Below are positions 38,560-63,157 of a stretch of DNA of 64,000 nucleotides, piece by piece. Origin of the DNA: Liolophura sinensis. Its lineage: Eukaryota > Mollusca > Polyplacophora > Chitonida > Chitonidae. The stretch spans positions 22,227,764 to 22,291,763 of the forward strand of contig NC_088306.1 in assembly GCF_032854445.1 (NCBI RefSeq), in the 5' to 3' direction. Made by a program: the position numbers and the translations under genes. The notes under the pieces were generated by a model that ran no database searches, was not told the origin of the DNA, and saw nothing but the letters and a program-made list of their open reading frames with translations. How positions within the stretch are numbered: position 1 is the stretch's first letter; the number at the start of each line of letters is the position of its first letter.

Positions 38560-38778
38560 CTACATTCCAAAAAACAGTTCCGCGGATGGCGACAAGATGC
38601 GCACGTGACTGGCGTGGTTTATTTGGAACCCAACCTGTCCATTCAGAAATATGTGAAGTACAGGAGCACGGATGCAGATGTAGTTACCCGGAACTGCATC
38701 ACTCCATTTAAAAAACGGAAACGGATTCATCCCAGGTATGTAAAAATAGACTACAAATGGTTCATCGTCTTCATCACT
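38560..38778 (-). CDS. MYND protein A terminal exon (219 bp)
   Basis: Acceptor TATTTTTCAG, then 72 codons and TAG. It encodes SDEDDEPFVVYFYIPGM, PFPFFKWSDAVPGNYICIR, then INHASHVRILS. The length is identical to, and the protein closely similar to, exons at 45399-45617 and 49301-49519. Conservation at protein level with exact exon length supports real coding. Confidence 0.8.
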   Translation of the reverse strand, partial: SDEDDEPFVVYFYIPGMNPFPFFKWSDAVPGNYICIRAPVLHIFLNGQVGFQINHASHVRILSPSAELFFGM

Positions 38779-41700
38779 CTGAAAAATACAGAAGACAAAA
38801 TAAATAGTTTCTTCAGGGGATAAACCGATTTCATTCTCAAAACTGTATACTGTTTGTTCACGTGATCGTAAACCACATATAGGTGATAGCATGTATAGGT
38901 TATATATTGGAAAACTGGTAGCCTGCTCTAGTCACACTGATATATCTTTTTTTCTTGGAATTAAACACATTAGAGTAGGGAAAATCACTGCATCACAAAT
39001 GTAACTTTCTGAAAAATTCTTGAGCACACAAGTATGCACAATCAATTAAATAAATATATAGCAAATGTAACTTGCATGCTTATACTTCCGCTACGCGTAG
39101 CATGTTAATGTTAATGAAAGACGACCACATGTGCTCTCAATCAGGATTCACATACCTCGCTATACATGTAATTGCCTTAAACCATACCTTAACAATTATC
39201 CCTTCTAATTCATGATAACACTTATTTAATGTAAGGCGGCCTAAATCGTTACTCACACAAAAGCATACTGCCAAAAAAAAAACCAAAACCAAAAAAAACA
39301 CCCCCCCCCCCAAAAAAAAAACCATAACAAAGAATCCAACACTTCCCTGAAGGAAGAAGGATGCCTGACATACAATGGAAGAAATACAGATTTTAAACTT
39401 GCTAAAATATGACAGAACTGATCGCAGTATAAAATTTACGTTTTGCATGTGAACATAAACGTTAAACAAAACGAAACTTTCTCAACATGTATAAATACGT
39501 AGCCTCCTCCCCGGCCGTATGTGGGAAGGTCTGTTAGGAACCTGCGGATGGTCGTGGGTTTCCCCCGGGCTCTGCCCGGTTTCCACCCACCATAATGCTG
39601 GCCGCCGTCGTATAATTGAAATATTCTTGTGTACGGCGTAAAACACCAATCAAATAAATAAATAAATAAATAAATAAATGTAAATACGTACATGAAGGTT
39701 TCAGTTAAAGTATTTTTCTGGTTAACGTTGATTTTCATACTATAAATCGTCTGAAGGAAAAATTAGCTTTTTTGGGTGCAGTTTTGGCGGGTTTCTATGG
39801 TCATTTAACTTCTATGGGTGCTTCGCCAAAGTTTTATACTTCTGATTTAGAAATTTAGAGGATTGTGCTGGGATTTTGAAATTTGTACCTTCTCATCGTA
39901 CCTCTGTGGGGCCGATTCTTCGCCTCACCGCACTTTACGGACGTTATCGAGGCATTTTGATGAAATTTTGTCCACTTACCAACTATCCATTCAATTTTTG
40001 ATGGTGACCTGGATCTGGATTCGGTAAATTTTTACGCGATTCATAAATATTCAGAGATTGACACAAATGCTTAGATCTTTGTCTGTAGTGGGAGAATTTG
40101 TAGCTGTAGTGGGAGCTTGTGCTCTCGGAACGTCTGCGAATGGTATTATACTTCTTATGGCACATGCCGTCGCTCTTTACCTCTCGCTCTACATCACTGC
40201 CACCAATAGCAAAATTTGCACAGGCATCATGAACAACCCCCAGGTCACTGGGACCACGTTGATGAGGCAGGAAATAATGTCAGAAAACAAAAAACAATTC
40301 GCCTCAACCTTCGTCTCTCATAATACTTTATGCACATGCATAAATTTTATCCAGAGAATGTGCAACATGATTTTAATCAACACATGAAAACAATTATTGA
40401 TGAATGCTAATTAAATAGTTCAGCGAGAGGACACAAGTGATGATGCAACAAGGGTACGTACTTCTCACAGACTCCATGCAAAGGTCAAGCTTGTCTATTG
40501 GTGGCAGTGATGTAAAGCGAAAGGTGGAGAGCGACGCATGTGCTTTAAGGAGCATGGAGTGGTGTACGATTGTCTGAATCCTCGTTCAGACTCTAGTCTA
40601 AATCTTTCACCGGAAGGTTTGTATCTCTGACGAGCTCAGATTAGATGTGGTGATCACATAGTTTCGAGAAGGGAAATAAAGCAGACAACAGTTTCTTGTG
40701 GTGCCTCAGTACGCATGTGCGTAATGCGTAACGTGTCATAGGCGGGATGAACAAAAGCGCATGATCATTTATGCCTATAGTACAGCATTACAGTTTTCGG
40801 TGACAGCCTAGAATTCAACCCCAATCCAATTTCCTAAAATGCATTTTTCTAAATTTTCGACATGAAACTGCGTAGAATAAAACACACGGATTTTGCTGAA
40901 CTGTGCGTATATATATACTTGAGTAAATGAATAATAAAAATGAATGAATACATTGTAACTAAAACTATAGCATCAACCATACCATAACAAGTAATCCATG
41001 ATGTATCCAGTCTGAGTTCATGGCTGTGATTTTTCCGATCAGGATTGTGTTTTTAGTTTGGAGCGGGGATCTAAGATTCCGATCTGACACAAGCTCCATA
41101 ATATCGTTGGTGAGGAAAAACCTTTCTCCAGGTGGAAGCTCGAAAAACCTACGGTGTGGGGGAAACCGCACTAGTCTCCTTATCAAGAAAGAAAGCTCTT
41201 CAGGGCTTGGGGGCGGGGCTGGTGGCAGAAAAATGTCCACCGTGGGATATCGATCCTTCACCATCATCGAGTCCGTCAGGAAGCTACTCACAACTCCAGA
41301 GCTGTGTGTAGGAGATGCAAGTCTTGTGCTATTGGTAGGATCAGCCTGTGGGTTATTCTTGGGGCCTTCGGGTTTCCACAAAAACACACAAGTCTTTATG
41401 TGTTCTGGCCAGTGGTCTTGTTTACATGAGTCTGAACAGTAGGCTGTGGTCCTGCAGTTGGGACACGGTTTTAGATCTTCATCATAGACTTTGCATTTTG
41501 CGCACTGCTGAACGTGATTAGAAGAATCACTGCTGGCATTCTGAGAAGACCATCTGCAGGTGACTTTGTGCTCGGGCCAGTGTGCTCGCTGACAGGATTT
41601 TGAACAGTAGGCCATGGCGCCGCATCGGGCACACTTTTTCAAATTCTTGTCGTAGTTCTTGCAGATTGCACACTTTTGAATTTCGCTGGAAGGGTTATTC

Positions 41701-42032
41701 TTGGTATCTTGGGAAGTCCATCTACAGTTGGCTTTGTGTTTGGACCAGTGTGCTTGCTGACATAACTTTGAACAGTAGGCTGTAGTTTTGCAACCAGTGC
41801 ACTTCTTCACTTCTCCACCAGTTTTGTTACAGTTTGCGCACTGTTGATCATGATTCAGACAATCCTTGCTGGTCTTAGACCCTTTACATTTGACTTTGTG
41901 TGTGGGCCAATGTTCTAGTTGACAAGATTTTGAGCAGTACGCCGTAATTTTGCAGCCAGTACATCTTTTGAAGACTCCAACATGGGTCTTGCAGTTGGAA
42001 CATGACTGTTTAACTTGTTTCGTGGATTCCAT
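38560..42032 (-). CDS. Multi-MYND-finger protein A (4 fingers), two exons
   Basis: Exon 1 is 42032-40983 and the terminal exon is 38778-38560. The join is phase 0 and gives 422 residues. Four MYND-type zinc fingers occupy about residues 9-215, each with C-x2-C...C-x2-C...YCS-x2-C...HW-x3-H-x3-C and about 56 residues apart. A linker follows, then a C-terminal domain starting at IFLPPAPPPSPEEL and ending across the splice in PFPFFKWSDAVPGNY and INHASHVRIL. Fingers of this class bind zinc and usually contact proline-rich partner peptides. No SET, ankyrin or other catalytic domain is present, so function is unknown. The unspliced frame would add only five residues (VWLML). Its donor ATG|GTATGG lies at the same place as in paralogue B, and the terminal exon continues the conserved domain. 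Confidence 0.8.
39500..39682 (+). mobile_element. SINE, 5'-truncated
   Basis: From CTCCTCCCCGGCCGTATGTG to a long ATAA tail; lies in the MYND protein A intron. Confidence 0.85.
40120..40600. repeat. Repeat with inverted arms, copy 1 (MYND A intron)
   Basis: TCTACATCACTGCCACCAAT near 40190 pairs with ATTGGTGGCAGTGATGTAAA near 40499; inner block GATGAGGCAGGAA is shared with 54900-55340. Confidence 0.65.
40983..42032 (-). CDS. MYND protein A exon 1: four MYND fingers
   Basis: The start MESTKQVKQ lies downstream of an acceptor-like T run plus TAG (about 42102), so a 5'UTR intron is plausible. The fingers begin SCSNC, QCANC, KCAIC and QCAKC; all eight zinc ligands are present in each. The region 41308-42883 is duplicated at 62601-64000. 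Confidence 0.9.
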
Positions 42033-42837
42033 GGATCTTAGATCTTGTGCAATTAACTTTGTGTCTAGTCCAGCGTTCGCGCTGACAGCCCCTCGGGCTA
42101 CAAAAAAAAAAGAAACACACCGGAACAGAAATATTCACAATACTGTGACACAATGTTACCACTACAATGGTCGAAGGCTTCAGTTGTGGAATATGAGTCT
42201 ACCCCGAATCCAAAATCAAACCCCTTCGGGTGCACACTGAGCTCCGAACTACTTTCAGCTCTCTACGTAATACCCCATGAGCTAGTACAGTGCACAGGTA
42301 CAAGGTGACGTGAGCTTATCGGAATAGAAAGCCCCGCCTATAAATTACGTGTAGAATGAGGTCATTTAATCTAATACCACAGGACATTTCTAAACCCTAG
42401 GATCACTTACAAGAAATAGAAAAGCAATTCTACATATCTGGGGTTGCTTTCATTTTCTGTTTCATATATAAGCGAGAATATAGGTAGGCCGGCTAAAACT
42501 AGTATTAAGCAGATTCTGGTACCCATTCGACTTCGTAACTGTTGTTCGTAGCGACGTAAACATACCAAGGTCAATGATTGCCTGTGCGCAGTAACACTTT
42601 CCAGAAATGGATATTGCTATGAGTTTGCACCAACATGCCGTTGTTGCTGTAGACCTGTAAAGCACTTGGTTTTCTTACTTACTAGTTAACGGTATGCTGT
42701 GGAATTTTTCACTATTAACAAGGTGACCGTCGACAGAAAGGTTTAGGCTCCTGTGGGTGGACAATCAGAAAAAAGGGGTGCAGTAAAACGCTTCAACGGG
42801 TGACAAATGTAACAATAAGCAATTGATCTTCGGTGAA

Positions 42838-42987
42838 CTATGAGAAGGTCTGCCAGCAACCTATTGATGGTCGTGGGTTTCCCCATGGCTCTGCGCGGTT
42901 TCCTCCCACTCATAATGCTGGTCGCCGTCGTATAAGTGGAATATCTTGAGTACGGCGTAAAACACCAATCAAATAAATAAATAAATC
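42838..42987 (+). mobile_element. SINE, 3' half, upstream of MYND A
   Basis: Shared with the duplicated block at 63955-64000, so the insertion predates that duplication. Confidence 0.85.
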
Positions 42988-43557
42988 TTCGGTGAGCTTT
43001 ATGCAAGACTACGCAGTACAGGACCAGAGATAATCGGCAACATCACAGTAACAACAAAAGCAGGTGAACAAACGTCTTTTTTTTTGTCTTGACAGAAAAT
43101 CAAGCACCATTAACAACCCCCTCCTGCAGGGGCCGTGCATTTACGTACGAAGGCTCAGTACCGTCTCAGCCCTGTACTAATTTGCTCGACCCCCCCCCCC
43201 CCCCCACCCCCGCCCTTCATTGTACAGTATGTGTACCGCCCAGACACACGAAAATGTATAAGATTACGACAATACACGAGTTCACGGTTTTTGCGTTTGG
43301 AACGAGAATAAAGCCACGTGATGCTACTTGAGTATTCAATAAGCGAGCTGTGGTTTGCCCGGGCAGTAGCTTAACATTCCAGATTTATCGGCATGCAGGG
43401 AATTTATTTACAAAGAGTGACACACATGGCCACATAATGCGACACTGTAGACTCCTATATAGGGCAATGCAGTGCACTGGATGATTCAGTATTTAAAACT
43501 GTGGCACATGCTCGATGGAACGGGTTTAAACCTGTAGTGTCAATATCCAAGTCAGGA

Positions 43558-43810
43558 ACCCCCACAGTGGTTAGCGTGCCAGCTCTATGACCCAGTAGCC
43601 TCTCTCCAATGCGGTCGCTGTAAGTTCAAATCCAACTCATGCTGGCTTCCTCTACATGGGAAGGTCTGATAGCAACCTAAGGATGGTCTTGGGTTTCCCT
43701 CAGGCTTTACCCGTTTTCCTCCCACCAAAATGTTGGCCGGCGTCGTATAAGTGAAATATACTTGGCTACGGCTTAAAACACCAACCAAATAATTAAAAAA
43801 ATAAATAAAT
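43558..43810 (+). mobile_element. SINE, near full length
   Basis: CCCCCACAGTGGTTAGCGTG head, box B (AAGTTCAAATCC) and tail. A second tail-only fragment follows at 43843-43890. Confidence 0.85.
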
Positions 43811-44308
43811 ATTCATGTCCACATCAAATGCGTCAAAATAAATGTTCTTGACTACAGTGTAAAACTTCAATCAAATAAATAAATCAAATACAATTAAATT
43901 ATTACATTGTGACGACTTCCCCAAACATGTTAACTCTTTTCTCACACATAACACATAAGTGATCATAAAATAGATTCCAGGTCATAGACAACTGAGCACC
44001 ACACTAAACAGTTACGGCCCGAATTACGTTACGTGACCGAGGTTCCCCATTTCAGAGCAGTACATAAAGCTAACAACCGAATTCTATCTTTTCAAAGTAT
44101 TTAATCCAATTACAAAAACAAACAAACAATAAAACGTATTTGAGATCTGGTCATATTTACTTCAGATTCCAGTGGATTTCCTTTATAAAATTATCAAAGT
44201 AATAAGAATATCGTACCATTCAACTATTTGCATTTTTTAGATCTCTCTTTAAGGAAATACAACCTCAAACTGTAAACCTTGTGTTCCTCTGATCAGTTTA
44301 AAGTAATA

Positions 44309-44524
44309 CACGAGTAATGTAACTCCAAAAACGAAAGACTCATTTTGACTCAATGTTTTGGCGCTTTATTTTCACATCATCAACTGATGATGGCGAAATA
44401 AAGTAAATCCGAAAAACGAAAAGACTCATTTTGACACATTTTCATCTAATGATGATGGCAAAATAAAATACCGAAATACTGATTCAAAATGAGTCTTTGG
44501 TTTTTCGGAGTTTTACTACTCGTG
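44309..44524. mobile_element. TA-flanked MITE with ~42-bp inverted ends
   Basis: CACGAGTAATGTAACTCC... pairs with ...GGAGTTTTACTACTCGTG, flanked by TA. Interrupts copy 1 of the local duplication and is absent from copy 2. Confidence 0.8.
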
Positions 44525-45398
44525 TACAACGGAACTGTGATGATGGCACGGGAGCATCGAGCTGTGGCAACTGGACCGTTACTGTCACCCATGGCAACAC
44601 AGCAAGCGGCCTCACAAATAACAAAGACTCTCTCTTTTTCATATGACAGAACTAGAAGTAATCATGGTAATGTCAAAATTTAAACACCATATCATATAAA
44701 ACACTATAACGAAATATATTCAGAAACCATGTGAACTTTGTTAAGCTTGATGTCACTCGACTAATGACAGGACTGATTTCACAGGTGTATATCTGTACAG
44801 AGGAATCTCAGCCAGGTTCAAAAGCAGGTCGACTTACTTATTACGGTAAGTCTTCTGCGTAGTTTCATTTCACGCACTGAAGCTTAATCTCGTCCATTCC
44901 TCGGACTGATTTCCGGTGAACAGGCCTGTATAACGAAGCTATGATCAGGTTCCGAATAAAACATCAACACAGTGTACACACACATATGGGGTAAGTGAAT
45001 TCTGATGGCCACTCAGTGTCATAATTTGTGCTCAAACGTTTCCCTGGCCCTGGTTTTATGAAAAGGGCGAAACGCACTTCCACGCTATATCATGAGTCAT
45101 GTTTGACGTAAGCCAAACCCCTTTGGAAAACGGGCTCCAGTTGTAAGCAAGCTTATTTCGGGAAACCGATCAACCGATCCAAATTCAACAAAAGTCCCTG
45201 CTTTGAAGAGCTGTCTGTCTGTAGTGTATCAGGCAGGTTGTAGCTTTGTTTCTGCTTCCATTTTGCCTGCTGAAGGTCAGGCAATGTCACACAGACGATG
45301 TCCTTCGAGATTAACGTCAGTTTGAATACAATTGTCCAATACAACAGTATCTTATCTCATCCGCACGGAACTGACACCAATTTTCGTTCGCGGCAGCT

Positions 45399-45617
45399 TC
45401 ATAATCCAAATCTCAGTTGCCCGGATGCAGACAAGATGCGCACGTGACTGGCGTGGTTTATTCGGAACCCGACCTGTCCATCCAGGAATGAGTGAAACGA
45501 AGGAGCGCGGATGCAGATGTAGTTACCTGGAACTGCATCACTCCATTTAAAAAATGGAAACGGAGTCATCCCAGGCATATAGAAATGGACTATCGTTGGT
45601 TTTTTGATTTTGTCTCC
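45399..45617 (-). pseudogene. Orphan MYND-family terminal exon
   Basis: A complete third copy of the 219-bp terminal exon, with acceptor TTATTTCCAG, an open frame and TGA. It is about 90 percent alike to the 49301 exon. No MYND finger exon lies upstream of it: the region beyond about 45860 is a MITE scrap and an unrelated CpG-rich block. It sits in a block (about 44010-45860) that duplicates 47800-49760. It is probably the stranded tail of a lost gene copy, unless it serves as an alternative last exon of protein B. Confidence 0.75.
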
Positions 45618-46479
45618 CTGGAAATAAGAAAAACAAAGAGGACAGTAATGTTAAAAAAAGTGAATGGAATAAATGTATTCCATAGAGGCAAACTATTGAG
45701 GGCCATGTTCACGTGACCGTATACGTCACACATGGATTACTTCATTTAGCACGCAGCCTTCCTAACAACCACATCCCTGGCTGAATCTCCAGCAAAATAG
45801 CTGAATCGGCATTTGCTAATGTTTATTAAATATAGTGATAGCATAGCCTTTTGAGTAATTCTAAATCAGTGCCTGCTAAGAAATTCATTGCTTCCGATAG
45901 CGATCACTGAGACTTTACCTAATACTGTTAAAAATAGGGGGTGGGTTGTCCGAGTGATGCTAGAATGTAAGAAGTGGTATTCCCCAAATGTCGCAATCGA
46001 TAACATCTGTGCCGTGGTTGACGTGGTACGACGTGTAAGTATATGACGTGAGAGATGGGTATTGAATGGCGCCGTGTTTGTTGGATCCATAGGATCGATA
46101 TAGACACGTGTATTCGTTGTAATGAAGAAAATAGACCGATAGAAAAGAATTGTGTACGAAAAAAAATTTTTCCGTTGGTCGCACTCGAAAACTGAAATTT
46201 TTTAATGAAGGGTTAAAATAAGAGTTAATAAAGGGATAACGTACCGAAAAAAGTTGTTTTAAGTTTACGCGTACAATACGATCGTTCCACCGCTAAAACG
46301 AACCGACAAACTAAATAAATTAGCTCGTACGGACGATGCACGATATAAAGGAGAAAAAAAAAATACCTGAACCACGCTGTCGAGTTGATTAAATATACCG
46401 ATAAGTTTTACATCGGGGAAAGGGCGGCCTTCTCGGATATTCCGCGTTCTCGTTCGGTGTTGTAGTTTTCGTCTTCCGT

Positions 46480-46850
46480 ATAATACGTTAAGGCTTTATT
46501 ATCATCAGCGGCATTCGTCGGGGATTGTCAGTACAGTAATGCAACCGGTCGTCGCTTGTAAAAGGTACATCCATCCACATAAAAGGGATGGATGGAGGGC
46601 TCAGTTTACTCCGGCGCGTAAACTGAGCGAAAACTCTAGGAGCGAAATATCGAATCGATAGCCCTACGTTTGGTCCCGCAGCTGTGACGAGTCCCCGCCC
46701 TCCGTCGTCCTGGTGTGCGAGGAGGAAGTCGTCTTTGGCCGGTAAACCGAGCCAATTGATAAGTCCATATGTCACGGGTCCGCTATTGTTACTCGAGGGT
46801 CGGCTTTCATGTCCCCCGACTCCGGTCCTCGCCGCATCCTAAAAGAAGAA
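46480..46850 (-). CDS. Unidentified exon-like ORF in CpG-rich block
   Basis: On the - strand an acceptor-like TTTCTTCTTTTAG is followed by an open frame of about 115 codons to a stop at 46488. It contains GPVTYGLINWLGLPAKDDF, TAAGPNVGLSIRYF and TDNPRRMPLMIIKP. Composition looks protein-like (W, G, P and D spaced, no low complexity), but I recognise no family. The first part of this frame, with its T-rich lead, is repeated in broken form near 46920-47005. It could be a terminal exon of an unknown gene or a piece of integrated foreign DNA. Confidence 0.35.
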
Positions 46851-47316
46851 AGGGGTTGAATTTCAAATGCGCCGTACGCTTTTTATTCGTTTAATAATGC
46901 CGTGAAAAGGAACATCGAATCGATAAGTACGTATTGTCACGGGTCCTCCGCTGTTACTCGGGTAGGCTTTCACGCCCCGATCTCGCTGCATCGTAAAAGA
47001 AGAAAGGGCTTAAGCTCAATTGACCCCCTACGGGAGTTTCGACGACCGGTTTAATACCCCGCTGGACTGTAACCACCCGTTACCTATAGCCCGAGCACGT
47101 CTTGAAACTCCCTCAAAACAAATCGATTCTGTTGAATAGGCGTTTTCCTTCGTCGGATGAAAACGCGGGGAGGTATTCTTTCGTGTTTTAATATTAACGA
47201 GTAACAACAAGCACAACAACTCGTATTTGTACTTTTTCAAATTATTCAAAAAATGTATTCAGAACGGTTGAAAAAACATCACCATCACCATAGAATTATA
47301 TTAAAAAAATAAACTG

Positions 47317-47553
47317 TTAATTTTGTCTTTCAGCGTTGCAATCTCCACAACACTGTCTGTCCATGCAAAACAAACACGGCGGTTCATCCTCACATGGACA
47401 CACAAAGTCTATATGTACGCCGTCTTCAGTTTCCAAATAATAATAATAATATTCTTCTTCTTCTTCTTCTTCTTCATAATTGTCACGACTATCATTAACT
47501 TCATCGCCAGCGTGTTGGTATTGGTCCGTATTATTCGGATTCTGTTGTACCAT
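47317..47553 (-). CDS. Hypothetical small acidic Cys-rich ORF
   Basis: 78 codons from an ATG. It has an N-terminal Asn/Gln/Asp-rich part, a run of eight Glu and five Tyr (from GAA/TAT repeats), then CPCEDEPPCLFCMDRQCCGDC with eight Cys. No family is recognised. The microsatellite-like Glu/Tyr run and short size leave doubt that it is translated. Confidence 0.3.
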   Translation of the reverse strand: MVQQNPNNTDQYQHAGDEVNDSRDNYEEEEEEEEYYYYYLETEDGVHIDFVCPCEDEPPCLFCMDRQCCGDCNAERQN

Positions 47554-47595
47554 CGTACGTTCAATTCACAATTTCCCAGGATCCTATCATTAATT

Positions 47596-48895: not shown

Positions 48896-49052
48896 AATTA
48901 TTTATTTTATTTGATTGGTGTTTTACGCCCTACTCAAGAATATTTCACTTATACGACGGCGGTCAGCATTATGGTGGGTGGAAACCGGGCACAGCCCGGG
49001 GGAAACCCACGACCATCCGCAGGTTGCTGCACACCTTCACACTTACGGCGAG
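48896..49052 (-). mobile_element. SINE, tail half
   Basis: ATTTATTTTATTTGATTGGT to GGTTGCTGCACACC; found only in copy 2 of the local duplication. Confidence 0.85.
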
Positions 49053-49054
49053 GT

Positions 49055-49300: not shown

Positions 49301-49519
49301 TTATATTCCAAAGGTCAGTTGCCCGGATGCAGACAAGATGCGCACGTGACTGGCGTGGTTTATTCGGAACCCGACCTGTCCATCCAGGAATGAGTGAAAC
49401 GAAGGAGCGCGGATGCAGACGTAGTTACCTGGAACTGCATCACTCCATTTAAAAAAGGGAAACGGATTCATCCCTGGCATGTGGAAATGGACTATCCTTG
49501 ATATTTTGGATTTGTCTCC
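49301..49519 (-). CDS. MYND protein B terminal exon (219 bp)
   Basis: Acceptor TTCTTTCCAG, then an open frame GDKSKISRIVHFHMPGM, PFPFFKWSDAVPGNY, FLDGQVGFRINHASHVRIL and TAA at 49301. Same length and phase as the other two terminal exons. Confidence 0.75.
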   Translation of the reverse strand, partial: GDKSKISRIVHFHMPGMNPFPFFKWSDAVPGNYVCIRAPSFHSFLDGQVGFRINHASHVRILSASGQLTFGI

Positions 49520-51917
49520 CTGGAAAGAAGAAAAACAAAAGTAGTAATATTAAAAACAAAATAAAAGGAATAACTGCATTTCGTATGCGCAAAACTATTT
49601 AAAGACAGATGATCATGTGACTCCACGTCACAAATGGATTACGTCATTCAGCATGCATTTGCGTGCTCGAATCCCCTTGTCGATTCTCCATCCACTTAGC
49701 TGAATCGGCATATGTTAATGTTTATTAAATGTGGTAACAATTTGAGGAATTGAGGTCACGACATTGTTATCTAATACTTCCAGTGCTAGTGGGCGTGTAA
49801 GTTGCTACTATTTAAGCATTTGCATGAACAGTTAGAGTAAAGGCCTAAATGGGGTAATTTGGCAAGAGGCTGTATTTCTCTGGTTAAATGTAACCATTTG
49901 CCATCTATCACGCTGTCGTCGCTGCTCTGGTTTTACTCTCTATGCTGTACGTTTTTTATATTGTATTAGGTGAAAGATGCTTGGCCGGAACGTGCCTTAA
50001 AAGTCTCCTTCGTTAATAAAATCTGATCGATGTCGTCGAAGAGGAAGACAGCGACCAAGTAGATAAAGCATGATTATATATATGTAATTATTTGATTGGT
50101 GTTTTATGCCGTACTCATTAATACATCACTTATACAACGTTAGCCAGTATTATGGTGAAAGGAAAAAAAACGGCTATGAAAGACACTGTCTTGATGATAA
50201 ACACTGGTTGGGCTTTGTACATGAATGTTTGGTTAAAGGAAACCGTGTTACGGCTTTCTTTGTTTTCTCCGATCTTAGTTTTAATCAATATTAAAGATTA
50301 AACAGATGTAATTATTCGGGAAACTACATGAATGATGTGTAAAACCAACCGCACCATAATACGGATCCCGTTTCTTATCCAGCACACATCCATTTCGACG
50401 ATTTTTGCCACCAGGATCGTGTTAATGTTCTCGTACAGCACTGAGAAGTAGCTCTCCGGCATAACCCTGGTCATGTTCGTGATGAACGTAAACCGCTGGC
50501 CGTCAGCAAGATCGAAAAACGTTGGTTGGGGAAGTGACGTCATCAGGCTGTCCACCAGGCGGGATAACTCTGTTGGGCCTGGAGGTGGTGCTGGCGGGAG
50601 GAAAAACTCTGGTAACGGTTCCTGTTTATCCATCATAACCGAGCCAGACACAAGGTCCCGTACAATTCTAAACATGATATTGCCTTCAAATGTTGTCGCA
50701 TTGACAGGATCAGGTTCTGGACTATCATTCCTGCCGTCATCTTCACGCCGTTGACGAACTTTCTTGCCCTTTCCACGAACCCCACAATTAATTTCATGTT
50801 TTGGCCAGTGTGCTTGCTGACACGACTTGGAACAATAGGCTATGGCACTACAGCCTACACACTTTTTCAAATTTCCGACAGTTGTGTTACAGTTTTCACA
50901 CTTTTGAACTTGATTCGTGGAATCCTTGCTTGTATCAAGAGAAAACCATTTACAGCTACCTTTGTGTTTTGGCCAATGCTCTTTCTGGCATGATTTGGAA
51001 CAATAGGCTGCGGCACTGCAACCTGTACAACGTTTTACCTCTTCGACAACTGTGTTACAGTTTGTACAATAATGACGCTCGTTCTGAGAATTCTTTGCAG
51101 CATTTTCAGGAGATGGTTGACAGTTGGTTTTGTGCTTCGGCCAGTGCCCTAGCTGACATGATTTTGAACAGTAAGCCGTTGTTGTGCAACGAGTACAGCT
51201 TTTCAGCTGCCCGACATTTGTGTTACAGTATGCACAACGTCGACCTCCCTTCATGGAATCCTTGCTGGTATCTTGAGAAGACAATTTGCAGTTGGCTTTG
51301 TGCTTCGGCCAGTGCCCTAGCTGACATGATTTTGAACAGTAAGCCGTTGTTGTGCAACGAGTACAGCTTTTCAGCTGCCCGACATTTGTGTTACAGTATG
51401 CACAACATCGACCTCCCTTCATGGAATCCTTGCTGGTATCTTGAGAAGACAATTTGCAGTTGGCTTTGTGCTTCGGCCAGTGCCCTAGCTGACATGATTT
51501 TGAACAGTAAGCCGTTGTTGTGCAACGAGTACAGCTTTTCAGCTGCCCGACATTTGTGTTACAGTATGCACAACGTCGACCTCCGTTCATGGAATCCTTG
51601 CTGGTATCTTGAGAAGACAATTTGCAGTTGGCTTTGCGCTCGGGCCAGTGTTCCAACTGACAAGATTTCGAGCAGTACGCCGTATTTTTGCAGGCAGTGC
51701 ACCTTTTTAAAGTTCCAACGTAGGTCTTGCAGTTCGAACAGCACTGATCCAGGGATTGAATAGGGCCATCTGGTTGTTTGTATCTGCAATGAGCTTTATG
51801 CCTTGGCCAATGTTCACGTTGACAGTCTACCGAGCAATAGAACACAGTCTTACAGCCTGAACATTTCTTCAGATCTGTGCAGTATCTGTCACACTGGGAA
51901 CAATGCTGAACCATCAT
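49301..51917 (-). CDS. Multi-MYND-finger protein B (7 fingers), two exons
   Basis: Exon 1 is 51917-50355 (521 codons) and the terminal exon is 49519-49301 (72 codons plus stop), 593 residues in total. Seven MYND fingers lie about 56 residues apart over residues 6-380; fingers 3-5 are nearly identical. A basic/acidic linker (KKVRQRREDDGRND) and the same C-terminal domain as protein A follow (EFFLPPAPPPGPTEL, DLADGQRFTFITNM). The donor ATG|GTGCGG is weak. It is chosen because it matches the donor position of paralogue A and the terminal exon is in phase. If unspliced, the protein would end 18 residues later at 50298. An acceptor-like TTTTCCCAG ten bases before the first ATG suggests a 5'UTR intron. 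Confidence 0.75.
49790..49985 (+). repeat. Same interspersed repeat, longer copy
   Basis: Runs from the GTTGCTACTATTTAAGCATT block to TATATTGTATTAG; lies in the MYND protein B intron. Confidence 0.7.
50088..50165 (-). mobile_element. SINE tail fragment
   Basis: TATTTGATTGGTGTTTTATG to the CCAGTATTATGGTG body. Confidence 0.75.
50355..51917 (-). CDS. MYND protein B exon 1: seven MYND fingers
   Basis: An open frame with repeated YCSKSCQ..HWPKHK..C signatures. The zinc ligands are complete in each finger; in finger 2 the HWPERK variant replaces the second His of HWPxHK, so that finger may be weakened. A 168-bp DNA unit is repeated almost exactly at about 51155, 51323 and 51491. Confidence 0.9.
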
Positions 51918-54222: not shown

Positions 54223-54899
54223 TAAAGTCTGTCGTTAGCAATTTTGTTGTTCTTGAGTACCAAAACAGTGTGATAACTACAGTTTTCATGGTCACCTTGA
54301 AAATTGGTCTCCAATTTAGATTTTTAATTTACTAACGGCTCTTTGCGACAGGCTAATCCATGAAGAGTAACATATACTATCACATACGCGTGTGACAATT
54401 TAAGCACTTGTTCCATGATATGATCGATTCCTCTGAATATTAATTGCATTATAATCGCTCGTCTAACCCCTTTTTGTCATCTATAAACGTTTTGTTATAA
54501 CGTTACATGTATGTAAACACAGTCATGCATACAGACCCAGTGCGCATGTCTAGGGCTTCCTACCCCTAGTCTGCCTCATAACATCAGTTAGAATAGTTAA
54601 TCAACAATACATTGAATAAAGATCAAATGTAACAAATGGACGGCGCTAGTTTGATGCTTGCTGGTTTTACTATTAACCTAACCGAAGCTTGTCCGAAAAG
54701 TGGAGAGGCAACTAAACAACTAAAAACAGATCTATATAGAGCTGTGTTTATCAATTTAGCTGATTGGTGCTGAACATTGTCGTCAGGAAGTTTTAACTTG
54801 CATGACGGTCATGTATATGGGCGAAGGCAAGCGGAGTCACTGGAGTGAACTCGCTCCCTTCGTCAAGTAGGCTTATGTACATGTATCAGTACTGACAAA

Positions 54900-55340
54900 C
54901 TTCCTGTTTTAAAGCCGTCAATAATGATGTTGTCATTGTCAGCTGTGTACCATACTCCCTGCAGTACATGTGTCGCGCTCTACCTTTCGTTTTTCGCATC
55001 ACTGCCATCTCTAGTAAATTTTGTACAGATATCCTGAACAACGCCAGTGCCACAGGGGTCGGGGTGATGAGGCAGGAAGTGATACCAGAAAACACAAACA
55101 ATACGAATCAACCTATATCTCTAACAATATTTTCTACACATGTATTCTCTTCTAAAGTGCGCACATTAAATAGTTTCGCGGGGTGACACACGTGATGAGG
55201 CTAAGCCTAAACGAACATACGTGCGTCCCACAGGCTCCACAGATCAAGCTGGACTGGTGGTGGCAGTGATGTAAAGCGGAAGGTAGACAGCGATGCATGC
55301 GTTGTAAGGAGTACGGCTGTGTACGCTAACAGATCCATCA
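54900..55340. repeat. Repeat with inverted arms, copy 2
   Basis: Same layout as 40120-40600: ATCACTGCCATCTCTAGTAA near 54998, GTGATGAGGCAGGAAGTGAT near 55064, TGGTGGCAGTGATGTAAAGC near 55257. Confidence 0.65.
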
Positions 55341-55469
55341 CCACAGCCAACCTAGAGCAAGAAATACAATTTTATTGTAGGATTCAACGTTAAGATAATT
55401 TGATCTTGTGATCACTTCTGGCAGTATAGATAGGCGAATATCGGTAAATCTGACTGTAACCGTATTAAT

Positions 55470-55572
55470 GATTCCATAACCATGGTAACTGTTCCATAAC
55501 CATAGGAACGGTTATATAACCATAATAACGGCTCCATAACCATTGTAGCGGTTCCACAAACATGGTACGATT
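55470..55572. repeat. 20-bp minisatellite, about five copies
   Basis: Unit TTCCATAACCATGGTAACTG with substitutions. Confidence 0.8.
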
Positions 55573-56392
55573 AAAAATATACAGACTTACGCATACAAAC
55601 ACTTTCGCGAATTACTGAACGGAATGTAACGTTAGAGCGTTACCTGTATACAAACTTAGATTATCTTACATGTAACAACAACAACGACAACATCAAATCA
55701 AAAAGAATATAGCCTAAACATATACACATACATGTAGCTAGATACCTCATGATCCGCTGTTGTGATTCGATTTCGCTCAAGGCTTTCCCCTCTTTCAGCG
55801 AAATTTATGTAAGTATTAAGTAACGGAGCAGTAATGCTCTCTTCTTCCCGCTGTACGCAACCTGCATACAGGAAATGTAGAACAAGAACACCCAGCTGAA
55901 GTCACCGCCTAGTTACTCATTTATGGTTCCGTATTCTAAAATACATGAGGCTCCAGAGGATGCGCTCGCATGCCGTTCATTCGCTTATTTAACACTATAA
56001 GGCATTGGTGCGTTTCCACTTGATAGCCGTTTTTCGTGATGATCTATTCATAGAAGGGAAGTTAAATATACTTTATTGTTCACCAGTTACACCAGTCAAT
56101 TAGTTTCAGTAATGATTGCGCAATACATCCAAAAGTATAGGGTAATCAGGAGATTTAATATGCACAGCGCGAATAGTTCTGGTGACAAAATCAGAATTTC
56201 TGAAGCTTTCAAAAGACATTTTGCACTTGAGGCTTTCAACATGTCAGAGCTACCTTGGTCATCTTGTTCATATTGTTTCCCCCACTGTAATGCTGGTCAC
56301 CATCCTATGTGTCAAATATTCTTGAGTAAATCAATAAATCCTATCCAATCAGACTCAGACATGACGCTCATGTACAGAAAATGTCGGAAGTA

Positions 56393-57735
56393 ATTCCTTT
56401 TGTGCCACTCTAAATGGCTATTAAATCTGTTCAAGGGTCCTCTGTCGTCCACACCAGTCCAACTTAAGGTCAATAAAATGGGGCCTTCCTGACTATCTAG
56501 ACCCCAAAATGAAAAGTATGCGGTAAAACACGTCTAATATATATATTGGAAATTGCTCTTGTGACAACGCCTCCATTTGTGAAAGACATTGCGTACCAGA
56601 AGGATTCAATAATAAACGTTCCATGTAATTTTTATTGGTTAAATCTGGGATCTTCATGTTCTTTATGACCCGTAATTAGGGTCTCCCATCTTAATCGCAA
56701 ATTACATATCCATGAAGAAATGGCTATGGAATCACATTAGTTTCTTGTATGAAACTCTAAATGGCTATTAAATTAAAAGTAGAAGTCAATAAAATGGGGT
56801 CTTTCTATCTGTAAAGAACCAATAATTACCCAGATATACATCAAAAGAATGACGTCTAATACGTTCTGCTGACAAAACCGCCATTTGTGCCGATCTAGAC
56901 AGACATTGTGCTGTTAGAAAATTCAGTATATGAAAGTTTCATTCAATTTTCATTGGGTAAATATAGGGTTTTCATGTTTCCTATAACCCTTAATCAAGGC
57001 CACCCATCATGATCGCCCTATCCATGCCTGTGAAGAAATGGCCATTAGCTTTACATCAGTTTTTTGTGTCGCTGTGAATGGCATTATATCGGTTGAAAAG
57101 TCCTCTGTCGTGCACACGAATTCAGCGTAAGGTCAACAAAATTGTTTATTCCTGTCTGTATAGACCCCAAAATGACTGATCGCTAATACAAATCATTGAA
57201 CTCTAATGCGTACAATTTAAATGGTTTTGGTAACAAAACCGCCATTGATGCCGCTCTAGACAGACATTCCATAGCCATTTCGTCACAGGGGAAAGGGCGA
57301 TTAACATTAGGGGTGGCCCTAATGATGGGTCATACCGAATGTGGAGACCCCATATTTCCCTAATGAAAATTGGGCGGAACATTCATTGTTGAACTCTCCT
57401 GGTACACAGTGTCTTTCTAGGGCGGCACAAATGGCGGTTTTGTCACCAGAGTTATTTGATTTCCAGGCCTTCGTATTAGACGTTAACGTTTTGTTCTACA
57501 TCTGGATTATTTTAGAGTCTTTACAAACAGGAAGACCCCAGTTGCTTGACATGAACTTGGTCTTGTGTGCACGACAGAGGACCTTAGGGCATATTTTATA
57601 GCCATTTAGAGCGGCACAAAAGAAACTAATGTGACTCCATAGCTATTTCTTCACAGGCATGGACGATCTAGATAGGTGGCCTACTTAAACGTCACAGAGA
57701 ACATGACGACCCCATATTTACTCAGTAAAATTGGA
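56393..57735. repeat. ~330-bp unit array with direct and inverted copies
   Basis: Direct units start near 56393, 56741 and 57060 (CTAAATGGCTATTAAAT, TCCTCTGTCGT.CACAC, GGTCAATAAAATGGGG). The stretch 57240-57735 carries the same blocks reversed (CACGACAGAGGACCTTAGGG, TAGCCATTTAGAGCGGCACA). It abuts the left side of the retrotransposon. Confidence 0.75.
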
Positions 57736-57905
57736 CGCAATGTTCATACATTTAACCTCTAACAGATCTAACAGATTCAAAGGCAGATAAATGGATGGAC
57801 AAAGGTTGAACGTGGGGGGGGTGGGGGGTGGGGAGGGGGACAAGCTGAAAACATGAGAGAGAGAGGCAAGAGAAAGAGAGGGAACATGAGATAGAGTTAG
57901 AAAAG

Positions 57906-60900
57906 TTGAAACTGCAGAGAGAGAGAGAGGAAAGGGAGAGGGAAGTGCAGAGAGAGGAAAGGGAGAGGGAAGTGCAGAGAGAGAGAGAGGAGAGAGAAAT
58001 GCAAGAAAGAGAGAGGGAAAGGGAATTGGAGTTTCAAATGAAAAAGTTAGAGGTTGAGAGAGGTGAGAAACCGGGTCCTTCCGGTAGACAGGATTCAGGA
58101 TTTGATGTGACCAAATACATTCGGTTAGTTCCATCCTTTCAGGAAAAAGAGGTGGATAAGTATTTTCTGCATTTTGAGAAAATTGCAAATAGCTTGAAGT
58201 GGCCTAAAGAGTTCTGGACTATGTTATTACAGAGTGTGCTAATTGGAAAGGCCAGGGAAATTTATACTCAGTTAAGTGTAGAGAATGCTTCCAATTATGA
58301 CTATGTGAAAGAGGTAATTTTGAAGGGTTATGAATTGGTGCCTGAAGCTTACCGCCAGAAATTTCGTAACTGTGAAAAAGGTAGAGATCAGGCATACGTT
58401 GAGTTTGGTCGAGCTAAGGAGCAGTTGTTTGATCGCTGGTGTATAGCCAAGAAAATAGGCAAGGATTTTGAAAGTTTGCGTCAGCTTGTGCTGGTAGAAG
58501 AGTTCAAGCGTTGTATTCATAATGATGTAAAGGTGTTCGTTCATGTGCAGAAGGCGAGTACACTTGAAGAGGCAACCAGTTTAGCTGATGATTATTCCTT
58601 GACACATAAGGTTACATACACGGGTAAGCCATTTAATTCATTTACACGTAGAAATACCCAGTCACATGCAACAGGTAGAGGTAGCTCTACACAGAAGAGT
58701 TCTACACCAGGCTCCAATGGTTCTACAGCTCATGGTTCACGGAGCTCAGATTGGAATGGTAGTCCTCGAAATAGGGTTACTTGTAATTTTTGCAAGCGGG
58801 TAGGTCACGTGATGAGTGAATGTTACAAGTTGAAAAGGATACGGGAAGCTCAGAATGAGTCTAAGCCCACAGGTCTTTGTGTTACAATGCACAAAACATT
58901 GCCGGAGGTTACATCAGCAGTTAAAAGCAGATCTGAGTTAGCTGATATGGGATTGGATAAGATTCCCAAATGCTCTATGGATAGCTTCGCTCCGTTTATC
59001 AATTCTGGTTCAGTGTCGCTTAGAAGCGACATGTCTTGTGCTACCCCTATAAAGATATTAAGGGATACTGGGGCATCTCAGTCTCTGTTGTTGATGAATA
59101 CTCTGCCCTTTTCTGAAGAGTCATACTCTGGGGTTCGTGCCCTTATTAGAGGTGTAGAGTCTAGTGACTTTGTCAGTGTTCCCCTTCATGATATTTATTT
59201 GTCATCAGATTTGATATCTGGACCTGTCAGGGTAGGCATTAAGCCTTCATTACCTTTTGAGGGTATTCATTTGTTGTTGGGAAATGACTTAGCACATGAT
59301 AAGGTTACTGTTGATCCCTTAATGGTTGATAAGCCTTCTCTGAATTCAGTCACAGAGCCAGTTGAAAGCGAGATAGCGGGTTTATATCCTTCCTGTGTTG
59401 TTACAAGAGCTATGTCTAGAAAAGTCAGTACAGACCAGGGTAGTACTGTTGATTTGAGCGAGACTTTTCTCAACAACATGTTGGATGGAGATTCTTCCAA
59501 ATTAGACAGCCAGCAGGAAGTAGATACTAATTCTGTTAGTGGTGATCAGCCATTTTGTAGGACTGAGTTGATTGCTGAACAACACAGTGATCCAAGTATT
59601 TCTTGCTTGTTTAATGATGCAGCTAAAGATGGTGAATCTTTACCTGACCCATGCTACTACTATGTCAAGTCTGGCATATTGATGCGGCAGTGGAGGCCTC
59701 CCGATGTTTCTTTGGAGGATGAATGGGCAGTTAAGCATCAGGTAGTTGTGCCCAAGTCTTATCGTAAAGACATACTGACCATAGCGCATGAAACGCCGTT
59801 AGCAGGTCATTTAGGTGTTAATAAGACCTATCATAAGATTCTCAGTCATTTTTATTGGCCAGGAATAAGGAAAGATGTTACTGAATTTTGCAGGTCTTGT
59901 CATACATGTCAGTTAGTGGGGAAACCTAACCAGACAATCCCCAAGGCAGCCTTGAGGCCTATTCCTGCAATTGGTGAGCCATTCAGTAGAATCTTAATAG
60001 ATTGTGTTGGTCCGCTACCTAAGACAAAGTCTGGAAATCAGTATATGTTAACCATAATGTGTACTTCAACTCGTTTCCCTGAGGCAATTCCACTAAGGAA
60101 TATTACTGCCAAGACTGTAATTAAGGCTTTAGTTAAGTTCTTCACCATGTTTGGTCTGCCTAAGTCAGTACAGTCAGACCAGGGTTCAAATTTCATGTCT
60201 GGTGTGTTCCAACAAGTTATGCATGAGCTAGGTATTAGCCAGTATAAGTCCTCAGCTTATCACCCACAAAGTCAAGGAGCACTAGAGAGATTCCATCAGA
60301 CACTGAAAAGTATGATAAGAACTTACTGCTTTGAGACAGGGAAAGATTGGGACGAGGGTGTACCTTTGTTAATGTTTGCTGTAAGAGAGTCTGTACAAGA
60401 GTCACTTAGATTTAGTCCATTTGAGCTTGTGTTTGGCCATACTGTGCGTGGTCCACTACAGTTGTTCAAGGAAAAGTTTGTGTCTGGTGATAGTGACAAT
60501 GTTAACCTATTACAGTATGTGTCAAGTTTTCGTACTAAGCTCAACAGAGTATGTGAGTTAGCCAGAGAGAATCTTACAGCTTCTCAGAAGAGTATGAAAA
60601 CTAAGTATGACAAAGAGACAGTAAGACGCAGATTTGAAGTTGGTCAGAAGGTATTGGCCTTACTTCCAGTTAGTGGTAGGCCACTTGAAGCTCGTTATTT
60701 TGGACCTTATGTAGTAGACAAGAGGCTAAGTGATCTTAATTATATTATTTTCACTCCTGATCGGCGCAAATCTAGACAACTTTGTCACATTAACATGTTA
60801 AAGCCATATGTAGACAGAGATAGCACTGATCTCAATGTTGTACATCCTAGTGGAGTTGCTATCTCTTGTTTTCCAGTGCCAAGTTGTAAGAGAGAGTTAA

Positions 60901-60935
60901 AGCGTTTTTTTGGGCATGGCAGGTTATTATCGTAA
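57906..60935 (+). CDS. Retrotransposon gag-protease-integrase ORF
   Basis: A 1009-codon frame with no ATG at its 5' end, so it is probably truncated. Residues 1-55 are Arg/Glu repeats (coiled coil). The gag core follows, then a CCHC knuckle CNFCKRVGHVMSEC (residues 293-306). Protease DTGAS starts at residue 387. The integrase zinc domain has H628, H635 and C665/C668, and the catalytic triad is D699, D758, E794 with exact D-35-E spacing. The frame ends in a chromodomain-less integrase tail and then enters an RT-like ELKRF segment before TAA. The product would act in particle assembly, processing and integration. Confidence 0.9.
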   Translation: MKLQREREEREREVQREEREREVQREREEREMQERERERELEFQMKKLEVERGEKPGPSGRQDSGFDVTKYIRLVPSFQEKEVDKYFLHFEKIANSLKWPKEFWTMLLQSVLIGKAREIYTQLSVENASNYDYVKEVILKGYELVPEAYRQKFRNCEKGRDQAYVEFGRAKEQLFDRWCIAKKIGKDFESLRQLVLVEEFKRCIHNDVKVFVHVQKASTLEEATSLADDYSLTHKVTYTGKPFNSFTRRNTQSHATGRGSSTQKSSTPGSNGSTAHGSRSSDWNGSPRNRVTCNFCKRVGHVMSECYKLKRIREAQNESKPTGLCVTMHKTLPEVTSAVKSRSELADMGLDKIPKCSMDSFAPFINSGSVSLRSDMSCATPIKILRDTGASQSLLLMNTLPFSEESYSGVRALIRGVESSDFVSVPLHDIYLSSDLISGPVRVGIKPSLPFEGIHLLLGNDLAHDKVTVDPLMVDKPSLNSVTEPVESEIAGLYPSCVVTRAMSRKVSTDQGSTVDLSETFLNNMLDGDSSKLDSQQEVDTNSVSGDQPFCRTELIAEQHSDPSISCLFNDAAKDGESLPDPCYYYVKSGILMRQWRPPDVSLEDEWAVKHQVVVPKSYRKDILTIAHETPLAGHLGVNKTYHKILSHFYWPGIRKDVTEFCRSCHTCQLVGKPNQTIPKAALRPIPAIGEPFSRILIDCVGPLPKTKSGNQYMLTIMCTSTRFPEAIPLRNITAKTVIKALVKFFTMFGLPKSVQSDQGSNFMSGVFQQVMHELGISQYKSSAYHPQSQGALERFHQTLKSMIRTYCFETGKDWDEGVPLLMFAVRESVQESLRFSPFELVFGHTVRGPLQLFKEKFVSGDSDNVNLLQYVSSFRTKLNRVCELARENLTASQKSMKTKYDKETVRRRFEVGQKVLALLPVSGRPLEARYFGPYVVDKRLSDLNYIIFTPDRRKSRQLCHINMLKPYVDRDSTDLNVVHPSGVAISCFPVPSCKRELKRFFGHGRLLS

Positions 60936-61470
60936 GTTCTGTAGGAACTTTTCATTTGTTAGTGAGCCACTAACTCAGCTGTTAAAGAAAGGTGCTAAAT
61001 TCTTGTGGTCCATTGAGTGTCAGAGATCTTTTGATAGATTAAAGGCCATGCTAAGCAGCGGCCCCATACTTGTAGCACCTGATTTTAATTTACCATTTAA
61101 GCTAGCTGTTGATGCTAGTGATATATCTGCTGGGGCAGTTTTGTTACAAGAAAATGAAACAGATCACGTTGATCACCCTGTATGTTTTTTCTCTCGCAAA
61201 TTTGACAAGTGCCAGAGAAATTATTCAACAATAGAAAAGGAGTGTCTGTCCTTGATTCTAGCATTACAGCATTTTGAAGTATATGTGAATTCCTCAAGTT
61301 ACCCCATTGTTGTGTATACAGATCACAATCCCTTAACCTTCTTGCACAAACTAAAAGGTAAAAACCGAAGATTGTTACGGTGGAGTTTGCTTTTGCAAGA
61401 ATTTAATCTAGAGATTAGGCACATAAAAGGGAAAGATAATGTGATTGCTGATTGTTTGTCACGTGTCTAG
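60910..61470 (+). CDS. Retrotransposon RT-tail/RNase H ORF
   Basis: Overlaps the end of the upstream frame at a 7-T run (60905-60911). It starts inside the conserved GMAGYYRKF motif that lies C-terminal to the RT palm in gypsy elements. RNase H follows with acidic residues in AVDASDISAGA, IEKECLSLI, VVYTDHNP and KGKDNVIADCLSR. One extra T relative to the expected frame separates it from the upstream ORF. It ends about 115 bp before the LTR. Confidence 0.85.
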   Translation: MGMAGYYRKFCRNFSFVSEPLTQLLKKGAKFLWSIECQRSFDRLKAMLSSGPILVAPDFNLPFKLAVDASDISAGAVLLQENETDHVDHPVCFFSRKFDKCQRNYSTIEKECLSLILALQHFEVYVNSSSYPIVVYTDHNPLTFLHKLKGKNRRLLRWSLLLQEFNLEIRHIKGKDNVIADCLSRV

Positions 61471-61572
61471 TTGGTTTTCTGCAGCTTTGTTTTTATAGAC
61501 TGTGGTAAACGTTATTATTATTCGTGATTATGAATATGTTAAAGAAAGTTTTATGCAAAACTTTCTTTCCCT

Positions 61573-61584
61573 GAAGGGTGGGGG
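61573..61584 (+). promoter_or_regulatory. Polypurine tract of the LTR element
   Basis: GAAGGGTGGGGG immediately precedes the LTR start, the expected plus-strand primer position. Confidence 0.75.
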
Positions 61585-62600
61585 TGTTATGTATGACTAT
61601 TTAACGTCTTCATGTACTGTTAGTCTGCGGACCTTTGTGTTGTATGTTATAAGCATAACAGGCCCTGTTATATATGTACAGTGCGGACCTGGCCGAAAGC
61701 ACCGTGTTCAATGCTCTGTTTATTTAACTGGCTGTTCATTGGCTGTTAAACTCGGTGTTTAAAAATAGTTGAATCCACCTGGCACGTATATAAGCCGTGT
61801 TTTCTGTGCAGAGGGGAGGTATTTTTGCTGCATCCACTGGGAGCCAGGAGAGTGTGAGACGCTCTCGTATCGAGTCCATTATTTTGATATGAGCTGGTGA
61901 TGCCAGTTTCATTTGGGAGGACAGTTTTTTATGCCGGCACCGTTTGTGTACCACAGTAGTACTGATGTCTGATTTATGTGAATTTCTGCGGAAGTCACGT
62001 TTATTGGTGTTCGGATCTTTATTATGATTATACAGTGTGGACTGTGTAATTTGTTTAACACGCTGACCTCACCTGACCGACAAGGTCGTCAAGGACTCTA
62101 AACTGAAGTTTTCAGTTTTGCAAAGGACGTTCGTTCTGCCACAAGGTGACATTACTCTACGTCTCTGAACGGCTCGTTTGTGAGCTTCTGCGGGAGCTGT
62201 GACTGATCTGAAGTGGATTATACCTCCATGCCTGTATTTACCCTGTGTTGTGCTCTGCGGGTGTGACGTCATTCAAAGGCTTGACTGTTCCAGTTCTGTG
62301 TAACCTGTGTACTGTGTTCGTGTTCGCTAACCTGGCGAAGTACCTGTCTAGGACAATTTGTGACTTGTGTGAATTGTGTGTTTATCCCATGGTCTTTACG
62401 TTGGATTTCCTGGAATACATTCCTTGGGATGCAAAGGTGAACTGGAAACTTGTAAAGACCGGTAATACTGATGTGTATGTTGTTGTTGTTGTTGAACTGT
62501 CTGTAAAACTGTACGTCTCATTTTATATATAAAGCATTGTTTACATTGTAATATTGAGTCACTGAGTCTGTTTTCTGTTGCCGTTTTCAATACCGTAACA
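61585..62600 (+). repeat. 3' LTR (1016 bp, TGTTATG...CGTAACA)
   Basis: The termini are short inverted repeats of the TG..CA type and directly follow the polypurine tract. A TATATAA at 61787-61793 would be the U3 promoter; a TATAAAGC near 62528 is a possible poly(A) signal. The right border is base-exact because the MYND duplicate resumes at 62601. Confidence 0.85.
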
Positions 62601-63157
62601 GTAGGAGATGCAAGTCTTGTGCTATTGGTAGGATCAGCCTGTGGGTTATTCTTGGGGCCTTCGGGTTTCCACAAAAACACACAAGTCTTTATGTGTTCTG
62701 GCCAGTGGCCTTGTTTACATGAGTCTGAACAGTAGGCTGTGGTCCTGCAATTGGGACACGGTTTTAGATCTTCATCATAGACTTCGCAGTTTGCGCACTG
62801 CTGAACGCGATTGGAAGAATCACTGCTGGCATTCTGCGAAGACCATCTGCAGGTGACTTTGTGCTCGGGCCAGTGTGCTCGCTGACATAACTTTGAACAG
62901 TAGGCTGTAGTTTTGCAACCAGTGCACTTCTTCAATTCTCCACCAGTTTTGTTACAGTTTGCGCACTGTTGATCATGATTCAGACAATTCTTGCTGGTCT
63001 TAGACCCTTTACACTTGACTTTGTGTGTGGGCCAATGTTCTAGTTGACAAGATTTTGAGCAGTACGCCGTAGTTTTGCAGCCAGAACATCTTTTGAAGAC
63101 TCCAACATGGGTCTTGCAGTTGGAACATGACTGTTTAACTTGTTTCGTGGATTCCAT
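62601..63157 (-). pseudogene. Truncated MYND-finger paralogue (3 fingers), cut by LTR element
   Basis: A near-identical copy of protein A exon 1 from its MESTKQ start. It has one 56-residue finger unit fewer (the end of finger 2 is joined to the end of finger 3) and breaks after RLASPT at base 62601. Base 62600 is the last base of a retrotransposon LTR. The C-terminal domain and terminal exon are absent from the window. The frame reads on by chance into the antisense of the LTR. Confidence 0.85.

Follow-up and report, generated by a model that had tools for sequence, protein, structure and literature searches.

The stretch of DNA analyzed here, a window of 64,000 nucleotides (nt) from Liolophura sinensis (contig NC_088306.1, positions 22,227,764-22,291,763 of the forward strand), contains the beginning of a cluster of genes encoding MYND zinc fingers in tandem arrays, joined in the full-length genes to one common C-terminal domain. 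These genes form a locally expanded animal family, and we propose, with about even confidence, that its products act as multivalent protein-protein scaffolds. Coordinates up to 64,000 belong to the window, and the numbering is continued into its right flank up to 204,000 (adding 22,227,763 gives the contig position); all data derive from a single assembly (609-megabase genome). The parts of the cluster found within the window are the following:

40983..42032, minus strand: array exon of gene A, with four MYND fingers (42002-41886, 41840-41724, 41672-41556 and 41504-41388), a linker and the first half of the C-terminal domain; 350 codons
38560..38778, minus strand: last exon of gene A, 72 codons and a stop, encoding the remaining half of the C-terminal domain
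42040..42093, minus strand: in gene A, frame-shifted relic of an ancestral first finger, with homology to finger 1 of B
45399..45617, minus strand: orphan last exon O, an open frame with an acceptor-like site
50355..51917, minus strand: array exon of gene B, with seven MYND fingers, a linker and the first half of the C-terminal domain; 521 codons
51624..51740, minus strand: B finger 2, with an altered zinc ligand (seventh ligand, His to Arg)
51121..51683, minus strand: tract of 168-base-pair (bp) repeats around B fingers 3-5 (Tandem Repeats Finder: 3.4 copies, 96% matches)
49301..49519, minus strand: last exon of gene B, with the second half of the C-terminal domain
62601..63157, minus strand: gene C, a truncated duplicate of A with three MYND fingers (63127-63011, 62965-62849 and 62797-62681), finger 2 being an A2/A3 fusion
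63165-63218, minus strand: finger 1 relic in gene C, the same as in A

As a preliminary description of this DNA had claimed, arrays of 4, 7 and 3 fingers lie here on the minus strand. The Pfam model zf-MYND (PF01753) matched four stretches in A (E 2e-40), seven in B (E 9e-69) and three in C (E 1e-29), values that exclude chance for the three arrays; all the listed matches exceed the curated cut-off, and A, B and C all passed the threshold of a second model as well, MYND_ZMYND11_ZMYD8. These scans covered the array exons of A, B and C, the last exons and seven copies of the C-terminal domain. They detected no catalytic domain, in agreement with the same description, and besides MYND no named Pfam domain in A, B or C; the rows for gpW (E 0.0048) and Glyco_hydro_25 (E 0.17) on protein B were below the cut-offs and were taken as chance. 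The predicted introns of A (donor ATG|GTATGG, acceptor tttttcag) and B (donor ATG|GTGCGG) are both in phase 0. Directly upstream of A finger 1, the relic aligned with B finger 1 at a local score of 22.0, compared to a maximum of 16.5 in 500 block shuffles, and gene H, farther to the right, retains the finger reduced to a relic in A. The His altered in B finger 2 is kept at its counterpart in gene G. No confirmed relative of the B fingers was found among viral contigs, in a collection without animals.

The cluster runs past the right edge of the window. At least 92 zf-MYND matches were counted in the genome, a lower bound, with 67 of them in one 75-kilobase (kb) stretch that begins in the window and comprises nine array genes, A to I. 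Two further matches correspond to the single-finger genes J and K, and the other 23 are elsewhere, no two of those listed lying within 200 kb of each other. The genes beyond the window are:

beyond the window: gene D, about 24 fingers (23 found by pattern and one frame-shifted), broken by an in-frame TAG after finger 13 and by frame changes farther on
beyond the window: gene E, four fingers, two of them damaged; no last exon found
beyond the window: gene F, 12 fingers in one open frame; 865 amino acids predicted
beyond the window: gene G, six fingers
beyond the window: gene H, four fingers
beyond the window: gene I, three fingers, with a frame change before the C-terminal domain
186.9 and 192.2 kb: genes J and K, single-finger genes that carry the C-terminal domain of the array genes

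The array exon is open and has its phase-0 donor in the same position in each of A, B, F, G, H and J, and five of the six (all but H) also have a clear acceptor. A search of the genome for the last exon gave 11 matches, all inside 152 kb of this locus, and a further, decayed copy of the C-terminal domain was found at 176-179 kb. Duplicated blocks relate A to C and E, B to G (95-96% identity across ~10 kb) and D to F. Around orphan exon O (42,517-45,946) the sequence shares 96% identity with that flanking the last exon of gene F, so O appears to be what is left of a D/F-type gene that has lost its array exon. Since J and K combine a single finger with the common C-terminal domain, this is likely to be the ancestral form.

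Our data provide good support for the gain and loss of whole 168-bp units in register by unequal exchange, because the pairs A/C and B/G each differ by one unit and a chimeric unit is joined in register. Compared with A, gene C has substitutions at 12 of 557 aligned coding positions and 18 of 841 upstream positions, plus a single gap of exactly 168 bases; its unit C2 follows A2 at first and A3 thereafter, with a joint inside the finger, somewhere within unit bases 78-86. The proposal that this copy at 62.6 kb had lost exactly one unit by the joining of finger 2 to finger 3 was thus confirmed. Homology of C to A stops at 62,600, and a tblastn search of the window gave this C-terminal part in A and B, with no other copy besides the orphan last exon. 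Gene C is evidently a recent duplicate of A that lost one unit and the C-terminal domain, so that the claim of a domain shared by all arrays holds for A and B and not for C. The other near-identical pair, B and G, has seven and six fingers, compared to four and three in A and C. In gene B, fingers 3-5 are near-identical 168-bp copies, as had been described, with 2/168 bases different between the first and second copies and 1/168 between the second and third. Finally, unit D18 opens with sequence of the multiplying class of fingers defined below and, at about unit base 111-131, passes into the linker that follows position 2, as expected from in-register unequal exchange. These four cases (A/C, B/G, the triplication in B and the D18 chimera) agree with the exchange postulated in the preliminary description.

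The 66 pattern-found fingers (three damaged units were excluded) were placed in a tree with FastTree. Fingers of different genes grouped together at position 1 (support 0.86 with J and 0.94 without it), position 2 (0.91) and position 4 (0.997), and so did the last fingers (F/D, 1.0; H/C/A, 0.87), with position 3 forming two separate clades, one of B-type genes (0.93) and another of A-type genes (0.87). The multiplying class is made up of 26 units (D05-18, D20-22, F05-11, G06 and B07; support 0.97 together with A03), and the unit multiplied in B and G is position 3. For 61 of the 62 classed fingers the nearest neighbor belonged to the same class, J being the exception, although the classes were drawn from the same data. 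The preliminary description had regarded grouping by position across distant species as contrary to recent expansion. Among the paralogs analyzed here both patterns were found, fingers 1, 2, 4 and the last grouping by position and the class of 26 multiplying inside genes. A five-finger ancestor of A and B, matched position by position, was also considered and proved only partly right: the positional pairing of A1-4 with B2, 3, 6 and 7 ranked 4th by DNA and 6th by protein among 24 pairings, and the larger finger tree backs positional descent for positions 1, 2 and 4.

The residues expected to bind zinc and peptide are widely conserved. The search pattern required seven Cys and an aromatic residue at each of the Tyr and Trp positions, which leaves only the positions of His and Gln fully free in these counts: zinc ligands were complete in 64/66 fingers and the Tyr-Gln-Trp triad in 63/66. 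The spacing of the triad (+0, +6, +10) equals that of Y540/Q546/W550 of BS69, residues that contact a PxLxP peptide according to the BS69 study (PMC4742278); the equivalent Gln and Trp are reported as important in ETO and DEAF-1 (PMC3555993). The ratio of nonsynonymous to synonymous changes (pN/pS) among the seven repeated fingers of the intact gene F was 0.19 in the cores (codon bootstrap 0.05-0.42) and 0.28 with linkers, compared to 0.98 (0.40-2.84) and 1.36, respectively, among the 14 repeated fingers of the broken gene D. These values show apparent purifying selection on the repeated fingers of the 12-finger gene F, and fingers in D that are indistinguishable from neutral. Between genes, nonsynonymous to synonymous divergence (dN/dS) was 0.17 for the fingers of A and B compared by position, where dS is near saturation, 0.25 for A-H, 0.40 for A-E, 0.47 for B-F and 0.56 for B-G.

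The proposed role would proceed as follows. Tandem MYND genes with one common C-terminal domain arose, with good support, inside a single cluster, and probably from an ancestor with one finger and that domain, as J and K still have. In most fingers the zinc ligands are conserved together with the Tyr-Gln-Trp surface by which other MYND domains grip short proline-rich peptides, so a larger number of fingers would raise avidity or add partners. A shared output or localization may come from the C-terminal domain of the full-length genes. The number of fingers would thus be a parameter that can be reset quickly, and near-identical repeated fingers would favor repetitive or oligomeric partners. A more specific version, in which this valency dial is used with a common C-terminal effector against repetitive, fast-changing partners such as proline-rich proteins of viruses or microbes, appears rather unlikely. 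If true, this version would make the locus a single-locus, protein-binding counterpart of PRDM9 and the poly-C2H2 genes, with a finger number evolvable by in-register recombination. Several observations weigh against the scaffold proposal. The triad Gln is missing in fingers A4, C3 and H2, and neither PxLxP nor PPPL motifs are present in protein A, the only one checked. The pN/pS intervals of F and D overlap slightly, so the contrast between them is suggestive only. The role given to the C-terminal domain is a guess, as this domain has no identified relative. Moreover, the broken state of C, D, E and O and the frame change in I would also fit relaxed constraint.

Four other explanations were weighed. 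The strongest competitor, which we consider possible and clearly less probable than a scaffold, is the neutral churn of a coding minisatellite, in which one or two fingers work and the repeat number has little effect, a 168-bp tandem repeat within an exon growing and shrinking with no further cause. It would account for repeated fingers that are near-identical and not diversified at the peptide-binding triad, for a pN/pS of ~1 in the 14 repeated fingers of D and for the several broken gene copies; on the other hand, the repeated fingers of F gain synonymous and few amino acid changes, and the arrays of A, B, F, G and H keep their reading frame. Broken copies are also what a dying, largely unexpressed cluster of pseudogenes would produce: C ends at a long terminal repeat (LTR), D has its in-frame TAG and frame changes, I a frame change and E damaged fingers and no last exon, and O lacks fingers. 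This explanation seems improbable in view of the open array exons with a same-place donor in six genes, five of them with a clear acceptor, and of the constraint detected in the F fingers and in A-H.

Binding of nucleic acids, with a C-terminal oligonucleotide/oligosaccharide-binding (OB)-like fold and a finger array that adds affinity as in poly-zinc-finger proteins, is in our opinion unlikely, if somewhat less so than a dying cluster. It draws on the likely strand order of the C-terminal domain as judged by eye, on a weak Pfam S1/CSD-like match in one of seven domain copies (E 0.08) and on the net charge of the window fingers, 0 to +6 in 13/14 and -2 in the remaining one. However, an E of 0.08 is within chance, the sole PDB profile match is a glyoxalase-family chain (E 0.0089) mostly over the exon-1 half, and the MYND domains studied in PMC4742278 and PMC3555993 bind peptides. 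An assembly artefact, with repeats collapsed or inflated, is very improbable. Assemblies are known to go wrong at tandem repeats, but the paralogous blocks are ~2-7% apart over kilobases, which indicates that they are not one allele assembled twice, the triple repeat of B spans only ~500 bp, and each exchange joint lies within a unit, flanked by distinct sequence to its left and right.

The C-terminal domain, ~160 residues when spliced, is split over the array exon and the last exon. It had no convincing match in Pfam, among the exons of A, B and C and the seven copies scanned, or in PDB sequences, and constitutes a candidate new domain; the strand order, judged by eye, hints at an OB-like barrel as a lead only. 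The glyoxalase-family chain mentioned above was the single match of a profile of seven sequences (profile positions 27-103/159) and was treated as chance, as were the four matches of a PDB profile search with three C-terminal domain sequences (best E 0.071). No confirmed relative was found in viral or prokaryote contigs, both being collections without animals. An AlphaFold model of the B and A array exons was set aside for its low confidence (mean predicted local distance difference test, pLDDT, of 29).

Genes A and B are old paralogs, with dS of 1.3-1.5 in the fingers and the exon-1 half, yet of only 0.30 in the last exons. Synonymous changes between them amount to 12/47 in the last exon versus 117/182 elsewhere (Fisher test on rounded counts; p-value: 2e-6), and identity is 132/150 in the core of the last exon, falling beyond the core to mostly 25-50% in blocks of 30 columns. 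The last exons of A (38563-38778), O (45402-45617) and B (49304-49519) are far more alike than the remainder of the genes. The simplest reading of the A-B likeness would be gene conversion limited to this exon. Alternatively, a low synonymous rate may be peculiar to it, as dS is also lower in the last exon than in the exon-1 half for B-H (0.69 versus 1.52) and A-H (0.43 versus 1.00).

To our knowledge, well-studied MYND proteins have one finger each and tandem arrays are unusual. No paper on such arrays was found among the top-ranked literature matches, which is no proof of their absence in print. The preliminary description had called a seven-finger array unusual, and this understates the locus, where the open frame of F encodes 12. 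BS69, ETO and DEAF-1 carry one MYND finger per protein beside other named domains; SAND, NHR, PHD, bromo or PWWP domains accompany the finger in the DEAF-1, ETO and ZMYND11 families, and none of these was reported by Pfam in A, B, C or the seven C-terminal domains. Neither was a SET domain, which in the SMYD methyltransferases is split by MYND; the best PDB match of the B array exon was SMYD2 (E 1.2e-7), followed by ZMYND10 (E 1.8e-7) and SMYD3.

The fingers described here match BS69-type MYND proteins in zinc-ligand order and in the Tyr-Gln-Trp positions. According to PMC4742278, affinity rises when two BS69 MYND domains act jointly, and a construct in which two MYND domains are paired bound a ligand with two motifs 30-150 times more tightly than it bound either motif singly. 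BS69 pairs its MYND by dimerization, whereas here 3-12 fingers are carried on one chain (~24 in the broken copy). In PRDM9 and poly-C2H2 genes finger number changes by whole repeat units, as it does here between paralogs, but their C2H2 fingers bind DNA and PRDM9 diversifies at contact codons (PMC3890296). The putative contact triad is unchanged in 26/26 fingers of the multiplying class, which gives no sign there of a PRDM9-like diversification of contact residues. As MYND fingers have mostly been studied singly, a locus with 1, 3, 4, 6, 7, 12 and ~24 fingers on related C-terminal domains offers a natural series to study the effect of valency on MYND binding, and the pairs that are one unit apart would make it possible to measure how fast and by what mechanism an animal gene gains and loses domains. 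Relatives of L. sinensis may well hold comparable, unnamed genes.

A Ty3-type element (57849-62600) ends gene C. Its parts, with limits of the LTR inferred from sequence, are:

57849..61470, plus strand: body of the element, with a SCAN/capsid-like gag, integrase and then RNase H
61585..62600, plus strand: 3' LTR of ~1 kb (TGTTA...TAACA)

The gag is SCAN-like (Pfam E 4e-11), a single LTR was found in the window, and neither of the two open frames of the element gave a Pfam match to a reverse transcriptase core. The order gag, integrase, RNase H is reminiscent of Gmr1-type elements.

As for the remaining features of the window, no RNA families were found. On the plus strand, exons for a CABIT domain (E 1e-19) and possibly a SAM domain (E 0.26, below cut-off) lie at 5505-6707 and 20192-21286, respectively, and may belong to one THEMIS/GAREM-like gene. 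A minus-strand open frame (27686-28111) matched peptidoglycan recognition proteins in PDB (E 3e-8), with no Pfam match. Many copies of a dispersed repeat resembling a short interspersed element (SINE) are present on both strands (572-760, 9448-9714, 11774-12042, 29531-29801 and others, with further copies at 36516-36706, 39502-39672 and 48897-49053). Dispersed repeats of the window are perhaps reminiscent of the molluscan SINE RUDI, an element named in PMC6934838. A minisatellite with a 106-bp unit (11.8 copies, 95% matches) occupies positions 23761-25012.

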